Positions 19,975 through 24,698 of a DNA stretch of 32,942 bases are shown here, piece after piece. The position numbers and the translations under genes were made by a program. The notes beneath the pieces were generated by a model. The model searched no databases. It was not told the origin of the DNA and saw nothing but the letters and a program-made list of their open reading frames with translations. Numbering within the stretch: the stretch's first letter is position 1; every line of letters starts with the position of its first letter. The stretch is taken from the NCBI GenBank assembly GCA_011772475.1, contig WVZK01000143.1, positions 56,436 to 89,377 of the forward strand. Reading direction: 5' to 3'. This DNA comes from Candidatus Aminicenantota bacterium (GTDB lineage: Bacteria; Acidobacteriota; Aminicenantia; Aminicenantales; Aminicenantaceae).

Positions 19975-20652
19975 CTATTGCTTTCGTTCCATGACGATTG
20001 CATCTACTTGGCAGGAGGTAACACAAAGCCCGCAGCCATAACATTTATCTATAGACCATCTTAACTTGTCATTATCCCATGTGCGAGCTTCGAAGACACA
20101 CCGCTCGATGCATGTTCCACAATCTGTACACTTCGTCGGATCAGTTCGAGCGATATACTCAGAACGAGCGATAAGATCTTTTCTTCCATAAGATTTTAAA
20201 AGTTGTAAGTCGTGGCAACAACAGGAACAACAACTACATAATGCAAACAGCTTATAATCTGGTTTGTAGAGGGTTAGGTGCACAAGTCCCCTTTCGTTGG
20301 CCTTGCTCAAGGCTGCCTTTGCTTCCTCCATAGAAATCTTTCGCCCCCTGCCCTCCTTCACATACTTATCCGCTGCCTCGTTCAGCATCAAGCATACATC
20401 CAAGGGATTCTTGCAGCGCTTATAATGGCCCCGGCAGAGACATTCGGTAAGAGCAAATGACTTCGAATTTCGGATGATTTCGATTGCCTGTTCCGTCGGC
20501 AACACCCACTGTTTTGCTTGTAAAGATTCATTAACAGGCACGACTTTGGAAGAGACCTCTATCAAATCCTCTCTCAACCACATTTCATAACGGCGTAATC
20601 TCTTTTCAAGAAATACGTCTTTTGGCTTTACAGCTTTATTTTTCCTCATCAT
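19975..20652 (-). CDS. 4Fe-4S dicluster ferredoxin-type protein
   Basis: CTDCGTCIERC and CYGCGLCVTSC, plus CSCCSCCC and CLCRGHYKRC. Confidence 0.88.
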   Translation of the reverse strand: MMRKNKAVKPKDVFLEKRLRRYEMWLREDLIEVSSKVVPVNESLQAKQWVLPTEQAIEIIRNSKSFALTECLCRGHYKRCKNPLDVCLMLNEAADKYVKEGRGRKISMEEAKAALSKANERGLVHLTLYKPDYKLFALCSCCSCCCHDLQLLKSYGRKDLIARSEYIARTDPTKCTDCGTCIERCVFEARTWDNDKLRWSIDKCYGCGLCVTSCQVDAIVMERKQ

Positions 20653-21611
20653 GACTCCATGTCCAGCGGAAGGGACTTTTTGGCTAGTAGCGCCCTCAAA
20701 TTCCTGGGCAAAATTTCATAATACGTAAGCATGCCCAGCTGCTCCAGCTTTTTGACCAAAGCTTTCGGCAGTTTTTCTATCGGCACTCTGTTCATAATGC
20801 AGGACGTCTCCTCCTTCGAAAAAGCACACGAATTTTCAATCCAATCCCTTTTGGCCTTATTTTCGGGACAGGACTGCTGGCAGTGCAGACAGCCAACTAA
20901 ACTGTTATGCCAGGAAGGTTTAAGCCAAAATGGGAAATCCAGCTTCCGTTCGTTGTGAAAAGTGATGCAGCGTTCAGCGTACAGAAGGAACCTTTCAGGA
21001 CAAATGGCTTGGGTGGGACAGTTTTTTTGACAGGATAAACAATGTCGGCAGCGCTCCATCATCCGTGGCTCAAGCCAGATATCCGCATCCGGAGGAAGGT
21101 CAGAATAAAATGCAGACAGTCTGAAATAACTCCCCATACCTCTGACATAAGCGATGTTGTTTTTTCCGTATTCCGCAAGTCCGCTGCAGACGGCAAGGAT
21201 TTTCAAAGGCAAAGCTGCTTTGGCAAAGCGGAAGTTCTGAGAAAGCGCATAGTCGTCTAGGATTTTAGCAACTTCAGCATCCGTTTCCTTAGAATAATTA
21301 GAAGGAATGAGAACCGGAGCCGTTGTATTGGTTAGGGTAAATGAAACCCTACGGTGAGGTTGAGGAGAGGCAACAACGATAATTGATTTGGCTCTGAGAA
21401 GATTGCCGGGCAAACGGAAGACGAAATCCCTCAGGTGTTCTTCGAATAAATCCCTATTCAACAGGCTGTGCTCACGCCATTCCGTCTGTTTTTGTTTGAG
21501 AGCCTTGACTCTCTTAACGGAGACGATTCGAGCTCTGTGACCTTTGTTTTCCAGCCTGCGATACAATTCTTGTGCTGGAGATACAAAATTTTTATGAACA
21601 AGTTTTGTCAC
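20649..21611 (-). CDS. QueG-like (epoxyqueuosine reductase-related) 4Fe-4S double-cluster protein
   Basis: CRHCLSCQKNCPTQAICPERFLLYAERCITFHNE, CLHCQQSCPENK, SGLAEYGKNNIAYV. Overlaps the downstream gene by 4 nt. Confidence 0.82.
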   Translation of the reverse strand: MTKLVHKNFVSPAQELYRRLENKGHRARIVSVKRVKALKQKQTEWREHSLLNRDLFEEHLRDFVFRLPGNLLRAKSIIVVASPQPHRRVSFTLTNTTAPVLIPSNYSKETDAEVAKILDDYALSQNFRFAKAALPLKILAVCSGLAEYGKNNIAYVRGMGSYFRLSAFYSDLPPDADIWLEPRMMERCRHCLSCQKNCPTQAICPERFLLYAERCITFHNERKLDFPFWLKPSWHNSLVGCLHCQQSCPENKAKRDWIENSCAFSKEETSCIMNRVPIEKLPKALVKKLEQLGMLTYYEILPRNLRALLAKKSLPLDMES

Positions 21612-21627: not shown

Positions 21628-22731
21628 TCAGCTCATTTTTTCCTGTGCATGGTATTCATCAAGTGGCGGCAACTCATATCTCCTCCCTGTATTAAAAGAC
21701 TGCCTTTGGGATTCTTGTCCTTTAATTTGGGGCTTGAATATGATGGCCTTTTCAGAGTTTCGTTTATCCGCTGAATGACGTTTTTCTGATTTGCGGGAAA
21801 CTATGGCCAAAACACCTGCAACCATCAAAATTGTGGCCATAAGTATCCTTGGCGAAAGGGACTCGCCGCCGCCGAACCAACCCACAAAAACAGCGATGAT
21901 AGGATTCACAAAGGCATAAGTGGAAACCTGAGCTGGGGAAACCGTATTCAGGAGCCAAATGTAGGCTGTAAATCCTATAATCGAGCCGAATAAGACCAGA
22001 TAGAACAAAGATGCCAGAGACAAAAAGGACGCGGAGGCAAGAGCCTTGTGTTCCCCAGTCAGAAGACCGACTAAAACAAGAGCCATGCCACCGCAGAGCA
22101 TCATCATCCCAGAGGCCAAAAAAGGACTTTTCGGAAGACTCCCGTATTTTGAATAAACTGAGCCGAAACACCAGGAAATTGTTCCGAAAAGTAGGACCGC
22201 AGCTCCGGCAAGATCCACGGACTGCCCACCAAGAAGTTTTGTAGGCTCGACAATAAGCACCATTCCTAGAAAGCCGAGCGCAAGACCTAAAATCACACTT
22301 CTGCCTATCTTGCTAACAGGGGAGCGAAAATATGAGAGGAGTATCATCCAAATAGGTGTGGTGGCTACGATAAGAGCCGCAACTCCGGATGGAAGGACCT
22401 GTTCGCTCCACGCCAAGGCACCATATCCCCCAAAAAAAAGCAGGATGCCGATGACAACGGCTGTTTTCCATTGTTGGAGGCTGGGATTTGCCTGCCCCCG
22501 AAAACGCGCCAAAGAATATAGGACAATTCCAGCCGATAGAAACCGGCATCCCATCATAAAAAAGGGAGGTATGGTCTCGATTGCAAAGCGGATCGCGAGG
22601 TATGTCGTTCCCCAAATGACGTAGATGGCTGCAAAAGCTATAAATATCTTTATTTTTAAAGGAATGCCACTGGTTTTTTCCATGACCGAACTCCTGGTGA
22701 TGAAACTGTGTTTTCTTGTTGAAGCTATCAT
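21628..22731 (-). CDS. EamA/DMT-family transporter with charged C-terminal tail
   Basis: Ten hydrophobic segments; YVIWGTTYLAIRFAIETIPPFFMMGCRFLSAG. Confidence 0.9.
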   Translation of the reverse strand: MIASTRKHSFITRSSVMEKTSGIPLKIKIFIAFAAIYVIWGTTYLAIRFAIETIPPFFMMGCRFLSAGIVLYSLARFRGQANPSLQQWKTAVVIGILLFFGGYGALAWSEQVLPSGVAALIVATTPIWMILLSYFRSPVSKIGRSVILGLALGFLGMVLIVEPTKLLGGQSVDLAGAAVLLFGTISWCFGSVYSKYGSLPKSPFLASGMMMLCGGMALVLVGLLTGEHKALASASFLSLASLFYLVLFGSIIGFTAYIWLLNTVSPAQVSTYAFVNPIIAVFVGWFGGGESLSPRILMATILMVAGVLAIVSRKSEKRHSADKRNSEKAIIFKPQIKGQESQRQSFNTGRRYELPPLDEYHAQEKMS

Positions 22732-22741
22732 CTTAAACTCA

Positions 22742-22775
22742 ATATAACCTATTAAATTCTATTTGGTGGTTATAT
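22742..22775. promoter_or_regulatory. Operator-like dyad 1, ATATAACC-N18-GGTTATAT
   Basis: Perfect 8-bp arms, upstream of the EamA gene. Confidence 0.6.
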
Positions 22776-22787
22776 GTTACAGAAAAA

Positions 22788-22823
22788 ATTATAACCTGTC
22801 AAGCTTTTTTTGGTAGTTATAAT
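22788..22823. promoter_or_regulatory. Operator-like dyad 2, ATTATAAC-N20-GTTATAAT
   Basis: Overlaps the EamA promoter: minus TTGACA 22797-22802, N17, TAACAT 22774-22779. Confidence 0.6.
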
Positions 22824-22910
22824 AAAAAAGTTGGGATTAAAAGATGGGATGAACCGATTACTGCATTTCAGCCCCAGGAATATCGGCTCATGCTGGGAAA
22901 ACGGCTGAGC

Positions 22911-23555
22911 TTAAGCTGCCGCGGATTGCTCTTTTTGTCGTTTTCGGTAAAAGCGCTTCGCTTTTGCCCTGTTTCCACATTCCATCATATCGCACCATCG
23001 CCTGCTTCTATTCCGACTTTTATCCATAAAGAGATAGCCACAGCCCCTATCATCTGCACACTCTTTCACCCTCTCTAAACCATCCGAAGTCAACAACTCG
23101 GCGGCTGATCGAACGACCGGATCCAACATACAATCAAGCTCTCCTTTTTCCTTGCTTGTGCTCCATATGAAACCATCTTTCGTATGAACTAGCCGCGATT
23201 GCGCCATGGTTTTGGAAAGATTCAGGTTTATCACTGTCATATCCTTTTCTGCTGGAAGATTTCCTATGGATACATCAGAAAAGACGTGATAAATAGCTTC
23301 TCTCAATTCTATGGCCCGTTTCAGCACATCTTCTGCCCTGGATGGTTCCCTTTCTGCCTCGCTAATCAATTCTTGAGCTTCCTTTTCTGAAAGGATTTCC
23401 GATTGAAGTGCCCATTTTACAAGATCATTGTAGGTTTTAAGCTTTTCTTTGGGATGTTCACTTGCGTGCCATGGGGCTGTATTAGCAAAATCCAGGCACA
23501 ATTCCCTGTCTATTTGGCTTTGCCTAATGCTCGCAGAAATCCGATTTTCAATCAT
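22911..23555 (-). CDS. ABATE-domain CGNR zinc-finger transcriptional regulator
   Basis: ELCLDFANT N-terminus; CADDRGCGYLFMDKSRNRSRRWCDMMECGNRAKAKRFYRKR C-terminus. Confidence 0.92.
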   Translation of the reverse strand: MIENRISASIRQSQIDRELCLDFANTAPWHASEHPKEKLKTYNDLVKWALQSEILSEKEAQELISEAEREPSRAEDVLKRAIELREAIYHVFSDVSIGNLPAEKDMTVINLNLSKTMAQSRLVHTKDGFIWSTSKEKGELDCMLDPVVRSAAELLTSDGLERVKECADDRGCGYLFMDKSRNRSRRWCDMMECGNRAKAKRFYRKRQKEQSAAA

Positions 23556-23614
23556 TTAATTTTCCTTAAGCTAGCGGCTATCCGATCTGCCCGCTTATCC
23601 AAAACAATCATTGA

Positions 23615-23644
23615 ATAACCAATGTAAGTATAATAGTAGGTTAT
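23615..23644. promoter_or_regulatory. Operator-like dyad 3, ATAACC-N18-GGTTAT, on the regulator promoter
   Basis: Covers spacer and -10 of minus-strand TTGACA (23650-23655)-N17-TATACT (23627-23632). Confidence 0.6.
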
Positions 23645-23753
23645 AATATTGTCAAATGAAATCTATCTCATACCTGGTGGAATGACAAGAATTTAACTTG
23701 ACAGTCTCTGTCAAGTGATATCTTATTTGTATATCACAAGTAAGGAGGGCAGA

Positions 23754-24698
23754 ATGAAACATTTCATTAAAAGCTGGTTTTTTACTTTATTTTCCGTGTT
23801 TCTGCTTGTAGGATGTGTCACAAAAACAGAGCAGAAGGCCGAACAGGAACAAACCAGCCAACAACGACCTCCCATAATCGATATGCATTTACATGCTCAA
23901 GAAGCCATTTGGATGGAAACTTTGCCTCAATTTCCTTGGCCAGCCACAGGGCCAAAAACAGAAATTAAGGACATATCAGAATTGCTTCCACGAACAGTTG
24001 AAGAAATGAATAAATACAATATTGTGTTGGGCGTTCTTACTCAGGACAATCTTGACGAATTGTACAGATGGAAAGAATATGATTCAAGATTTATGCTTGG
24101 GGCAATGGTTGGAAACCCAAAGGCTGCTGATCTTGAGCGGATTACCAATGATTTTAAAAATGGTAAATTGGAAGTTGTAGGTGAAATAGCTTCCCAGTAT
24201 CACAATTATGCAGCTAATGATCCAGCATTAGATCCATTTTTTGCATTAGCTGAAGAATTTGACGCACCAGTACTCATTCACTGCATGGGAGCAGGAGGGG
24301 GTCTTCATTTCCCTATTGCCAAAGGTAATCCTCTCTTAGTGAGTGAGGTTATAAAAAAGCATCCGAAGCTTAAGATCTACATTGAAAATGCGGCCTGGCC
24401 TTTCTTAGAGGAAATCATTTCATTACTGTACATGTATCCGAATGTTTATGTCGATGTTTCCACGATAACTTGGGTCATTCCTAGAAATGTTTTTCACAGT
24501 TATCTAAAAGATTTGATGGATGCAGGTCTCGGAAAAAGAATAATGTTTGGCTCAGATCAGATGATCTGGCCTGAATCTATCGGTATGGCGATAGAAGCTA
24601 TTGAGTCAGCTGAATTTCTTACAGAAGAGGAGAAAAGGGATATCTTCTATAACAATGCGGCAAGGTTTCTGCGGCTGGAAGAAGAATTAGAGAAATAA
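23754..24698 (+). CDS. Lipoprotein amidohydrolase (amidohydro_2/TatD-like)
   Basis: Lipobox LLVGC, metal-binding IIDMHLHAQE, LIHCMG, RIMFGSDQMIWP; Shine-Dalgarno AAGGAGGG. Confidence 0.85.
   Translation: MKHFIKSWFFTLFSVFLLVGCVTKTEQKAEQEQTSQQRPPIIDMHLHAQEAIWMETLPQFPWPATGPKTEIKDISELLPRTVEEMNKYNIVLGVLTQDNLDELYRWKEYDSRFMLGAMVGNPKAADLERITNDFKNGKLEVVGEIASQYHNYAANDPALDPFFALAEEFDAPVLIHCMGAGGGLHFPIAKGNPLLVSEVIKKHPKLKIYIENAAWPFLEEIISLLYMYPNVYVDVSTITWVIPRNVFHSYLKDLMDAGLGKRIMFGSDQMIWPESIGMAIEAIESAEFLTEEEKRDIFYNNAARFLRLEEELEK

Follow-up and report, generated by a model that had tools for sequence, protein, structure and literature searches.

Autoregulated local repressors encoded beside an exporter gene are familiar from circuits of the TetR and LacI type. 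Among regulators that combine an ABATE domain with a CGNR zinc finger, the closest described protein is Jann_2411 (PDB 3h0n), the first ABATE/CGNR structure, reported in 2009, in which the ABATE domain is joined to a treble-clef CGNR zinc finger with four cysteines (PMC2954205). A dimer was reported and a role as a DNA-binding regulator was predicted; the paper gives neither a DNA site nor a target nor a ligand (PMC2954205). Local control of an EamA transporter gene is described for Pseudomonas aeruginosa, where the Lrp/AsnC regulator PA2577 controls the EamA-like gene PA2576 (PMC8707732); that regulator belongs to an unrelated family. An earlier note on the DNA analyzed here had called ABATE/CGNR operators poorly described. 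In the open-access literature searched (subscription papers were outside its scope) we found no operator, target, or ligand for this family, the one relevant paper being the 2009 structure.

We analyzed a window, meaning the whole stretch of 32,942 nucleotides, in which an ABATE/CGNR regulator is encoded among three inverted repeats (dyads). The features concerned are as follows.

19975-20652, minus strand: 225-aa 4Fe-4S protein with Fer4 domains, third gene of the presumed target operon, with a 4-base overlap with the preceding gene
20649-21611, minus strand: QueG-related Fe-S protein, second gene of the presumed target operon
21628-22731, minus strand: EamA-family exporter (Pfam PF00892), the presumed target gene; start probably the ATG at 22683 after AGGAG
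22744-22773, unstranded: candidate operator dyad 1, ATAACC-N18-GGTTAT, tandem partner of dyad 2
22774-22802, minus strand: putative EamA operon promoter, TTGACA-N17-TAACAT, -35 at 22802-22797 and -10 at 22779-22774; relatives have the same -35/-10 arrangement
22791-22820, unstranded: candidate operator dyad 2, ATAACC-N18-AGTTAT, with the EamA -35 inside it as TTGACAGGTTA on the minus strand
22911-23555, minus strand: regulator gene, 214 aa, ABATE domain (PF07336) and CGNR zinc finger (PF11706)
23615-23644, unstranded: candidate operator dyad 3, ATAACC-N18-GGTTAT
23627-23655, minus strand: putative regulator promoter, TTGACA-N17-TATACT, -35 at 23655-23650 and -10 at 23632-23627, read from the sequence

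The window regulator has the same two-domain build as Jann_2411. Its N-terminal ABATE domain scores 73.3 bits against a Pfam cut-off of 24.4, and its C-terminal CGNR zinc finger scores 56.1 bits against a cut-off of 24. The four zinc-binding cysteines and the CGNR motif are present, and C166, C172, C188, C193, and G194 are invariant among 21 sequences. A C-terminal helix is predicted at residues 193-213, which include R196, A199, and Y203. The AlphaFold model of the regulator, built from 21 relatives, has a mean pLDDT of 85, and its sole PDB match below an E-value of 0.001 is 3h0n (E 1.3e-6). For the EamA exporter, the nearest NCBIfam model is YedA, below its cut-off.

The three dyads are very probably the operators of an autorepressing ABATE/CGNR regulator encoded between them, which would control the EamA exporter/Fe-S operon by direct binding, repression, and ligand release. 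The likeness to TetR and LacI circuits lies in the regulator gene next to a transporter target, the operators on both promoters, and the one-locus regulon. The difference is that the DNA is predicted to be read by a treble-clef zinc finger instead of a helix-turn-helix, and that the dyads usually come as tandem pairs. The combination of autorepressor and exporter is a known kind of circuit; the operator, and a likely code for the CGNR type of zinc finger, appear to be new. Compared with the Jann_2411 paper, we propose a site, a register, a promoter context, and a correlation between residue and base, and the conserved site makes the 2009 prediction of DNA binding testable.

ATAAC-N20-GTTAT occurs without mismatch at 22744-22773, 22791-22820, and 23615-23644, exactly where the earlier note had placed three dyads. 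Its description of five of the six half-sites as ATAACC or a close form also holds, since five read ATAACC and the sixth (22815-22820) is AGTTAT, or ATAACT on the other strand. When one mismatch is allowed, the window contains these three dyads only, with 0.74 expected from shuffles. The dyads might also be matches arising by chance in AT-rich promoter DNA, and 3 of 100 window shuffles did give at least three near matches. However, in the 3.14 Mb genome (204 contigs) the three window dyads, spanning 901 bp, stand alone among the zero-mismatch matches listed, and the spacer-specific conservation upstream of orthologues described below falls to zero in resampled controls, so we regard chance as a negligible explanation. 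A genome-wide search for single dyads with one mismatch was uninformative (83 places, compared with 99 in the reversed control).

Conservation was first apparent within the family of the window's genome, where the regulator is present in 5 of 38 genomes, the window's own counted. Two relatives retain both the regulator and EamA. In these orthologous pairs (L007/L012 and L008/L011), which had been proposed as the place to look, the dyad and its spacing recur: ATAACC-N18-GGTTAT precedes the regulator, as a single dyad equivalent to dyad 3 (L011, L012), and a dyad pair precedes EamA. In two other relatives of the family the regulator and a QueG-related gene diverge, and two dyads lie in the promoter region that they share. 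QueG-related genes are the divergent neighbor of the regulator in L014, L016, and L022 and lie on the same side in L018; both target types, EamA and QueG-related, are joined in the window operon.

The recurrence extends far beyond the family. A scan of a genome collection yielded 25 loci, which come from Aminicenantes, Desulfobacterales, Bipolaricaulota, Chloroflexi, Bacteroidetes/Ignavibacteria, Acidobacteria, and others. At almost every locus of L011-L029 there is xTAACC-N18-GGTTAx or a form that differs from it by one or two letters, mostly as tandem pairs 47-48 bp apart. The starts of dyads 1 and 2 are 47 bp apart, an offset shared by 12 other dyad pairs. The motif suggested earlier, ATAACC-N18-GGTTAT, needs to be narrowed accordingly: its TAACC-N18-GGTTA core is invariant across relatives, whereas its outer A/T varies with the regulator subfamily.

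We then searched 396 genomes of the same phylum from DNA alone for the tandem pattern TAACC-N18-GGTTA-N17..22-TAACC-N18-GGTTA. It gave 8 matches, with 0 for the reversed pattern, and a profile search placed every one of the 8 immediately upstream of an ABATE/CGNR gene. In the converse test, PF11706 was found in 60 of the 396 genomes, which together with the earlier loci gave 96 distinct regulators, 84 of them with usable upstream DNA. Exact TAACC dyads were found for 40 of these regulators at spacer 18, for 7 at spacer 19, and for 1 each at spacers 17 and 20, a sharp peak at 18 followed by 19; resampled controls gave 0.0 at spacers 17-20. With TAACC, ACACC, or TCACC accepted as the core, a dyad is present for 64 of the 84 regulators, although a few cases with TCACC are doubtful. 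Two or more dyads are present for 39, and in most of these the starts are separated by 44-48 bp. At the thresholds used, no dyad was found at the other 20. A divergent subfamily has AACACC-N18-GGTGTT, in which the half-site letters are changed and the register is kept, as would follow from a register set by the protein. Single dyads, at the regulator promoter of the window and in several subfamilies, point to the 30-bp dyad as the operator unit.

Some matches were not counted as established, namely TCACC half-sites with one mismatch and spacers of 8-10, where there was some excess or stray matching. Certain regulators lacking a spacer of 17-20 have TAACC/GGTTA in a different arrangement. At L048 and in B. 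cenocepacia (L121), it occurs at spacer 8, about one helical turn shorter. The Edaphobacter regulators (L030-L032) have TAACCGGTTA, with no spacer. Neighboring genes also recur. At several dyad-bearing loci of different phyla (L017, L018, L021, L023), the closest divergent gene is a small ORF of about 70-82 aa, and a Pfam scan of one such ORF gave no match. DinB-like (DinB_2) genes recur next to dyad-bearing CGNR regulators (L020, L023, L027, L028, L029), and L029 also has a DoxX-like gene; these DinB_2 and DoxX-like neighbors hint at a role in detoxification or stress.

The operators lie on the regulator's own promoter and on the target promoter, a layout conserved in relatives. In the genomes checked, tandem sites occur solely at the regulator locus, and in six genomes single TAACC-N18-GGTTA dyads outside that locus occur at about the control rate, so the regulon looks local. 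The window's genome contains two other exact TAACC-N18-GGTTA sites, at G000:C81:4033-4060 (L140) and G000:C110:10292-10319 (L139), which are probably due to chance.

The outer base of the half-site varies with one residue of the regulator. Where the column of window Y203 is Tyr, the outer base is G in 4 of 128 half-sites; where it is Arg, G is found in 79 of 86. This column ranks first of 195 alignment columns across 71 regulators (phi 0.94, 0.85 of 0.94 bits). The runner-up (phi 0.67) is the column of A199, one turn away on the same helix. The rule was first seen in the set of 84 regulators, and plasmid regulators scored later follow it, with G in 29 of 32 half-sites for Arg and in 0 of 10 for Tyr. 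On a tree built from the ABATE domain only, residue 203 changes 5-7 times, and only 2-3 supported independent pairs differ; these are always concordant where the base differs, and they are too few for significance in a sign test. Since the outer base tracks a residue of the regulator's C-terminal helix, the covariation suggests that the dyad DNA is read by the CGNR protein itself. An alternative, which we consider very unlikely, is that the dyads are bound by a transcription factor encoded at some other locus, whose control of CGNR genes in many phyla would be coincidental. Against it, every tandem site of the DNA-only search adjoins a CGNR gene, the half-site letters follow a CGNR helix residue better than any other column, and single dyads away from the locus occur at about the control rate.

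The position of the dyads on the promoters bears on how the CGNR protein would act. The earlier note had the dyads overlying both promoters, and the geometry read directly from the sequence agrees: dyad 2 lies over the EamA -35, dyad 1 adjoins the -10 of the same promoter and spans the start site, and dyad 3 spans the regulator -10 and part of the spacer. This bracketing of promoters is conserved among relatives. Of 35 tandem pairs, 31 have TGTCAA directly after TAACC in the gene-proximal dyad, that is TTGACAGGTTA, which corresponds to a -35 facing the target and away from the regulator; next comes a -10-like element that adjoins the other dyad or overlaps with it. That other dyad contains the regulator -10 at about a dozen loci. 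Coverage of the -35 and start site and of the regulator -10 supports occlusion of both promoters, and the position of the dyads over -35 and -10 elements argues for repression, though it is no proof. The CGNR protein might instead bind the dyads and activate, or activate at one promoter and repress at another, and the Jann_2411 paper suggests only a signal-dependent regulator (PMC2954205). We consider activation unlikely, because the paired dyads hold the target -35 and start site, and the loci with the regulator -10 inside a dyad have the same occluding layout.

Secondary structures in RNA or DNA, such as attenuators, and the ends of mobile elements could also take the form of inverted repeats. 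Here, however, the arms are short (5-6 bp with an 18-nt loop), the dyads lie partly on promoter DNA that is not transcribed (the -35) in a fixed register with the promoter elements, and they occur at unrelated target genes, which makes this origin highly improbable.

We therefore return to the autoregulating CGNR repressor that had been suggested for these dyads, which is supported by the conservation, the 8 of 8 matches from DNA alone, the covariation, and the promoter positions. The regulator would bind as a dimer, each subunit placing its C-terminal treble-clef zinc-finger helix on one TAACC half-site. The two half-sites would be about 23 bp apart, center to center, which to our knowledge is wider than in TetR or LacI operators. 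Two dimers on the tandem dyads would bracket the EamA promoter from its -35 through the start site, and a single dimer at dyad 3 would cover the regulator's own -10. In the absence of a signal, the regulator would repress both genes; a ligand bound to the ABATE domain would release it, and the exporter/Fe-S operon would be expressed.

The dyad pattern is conserved in at least eight bacterial phyla. Plasmid-borne regulators of Alpha-, Beta-, and Gammaproteobacteria, Deinococcus, and Bacillota have altered half-sites in the same geometry. Those of Rhizobium, Agrobacterium, and Shinella have GTAACG-N18-CGTTAC beside EamA, those of Caballeronia and Paraburkholderia have GTAACC-N19-GGTTAC pairs, and those of Pantoea and Sodalis have N18/N19 sites. 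In Deinococcus there are CTTACC-N18-GGTAAG pairs adjoining an MFS gene, and in Mesobacillus there is ATAACT-N18-GGTTAT. Among the proteins with the half-site TAACG, the Arg of the CGNR motif is replaced in most (CGSH, CGSA, CGVH), and one keeps it (CGTR). The eponymous Arg196 may read the inner G, because it is lost in most of the rhizobial proteins with this half-site. The dyad was not seen at three Streptomyces loci. On the Streptomyces plasmids of L130 and L131, short GAACC/GGTTC inverted repeats, unlike the dyad studied here, lie upstream of CGNR genes and are possibly an actinobacterial variant.

Bacterial CGNR regulators may share one operator grammar, a generalization to which we give an even chance. 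It would consist of two half-sites of 5 bp whose register is fixed (spacer 17-20), frequently as two promoter-bracketing tandem dyads. A few residues on a single face of the C-terminal helix would determine the half-site letters, residue 203 specifying the outer base. For the widespread ABATE/CGNR family, our analysis offers a predicted binding site and, in the link from one amino acid to one DNA base, an initial recognition rule. Targets can be listed genome by genome, including EamA, MFS, DinB-like, QueG-like, and alpha/beta hydrolase genes. The conserved site would also yield a DNA code for a type of zinc finger whose specificity is apparently undescribed. If the shared grammar is true, the operators and targets of many unstudied regulators would be predictable from protein sequence.

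Two more perfect inverted repeats, CTTGACAGTCTCTGTCAAG and GTGATATCTTATTTGTATATCAC, are located at 23699-23738 of the window. They overlie the promoter region of a plus-strand amidohydrolase lipoprotein gene that starts near 23754 and have the appearance of operators for a different regulator. For GTGATATCTTATTTGTATATCAC, a single near match lies at another place in the genome, C141:47824.
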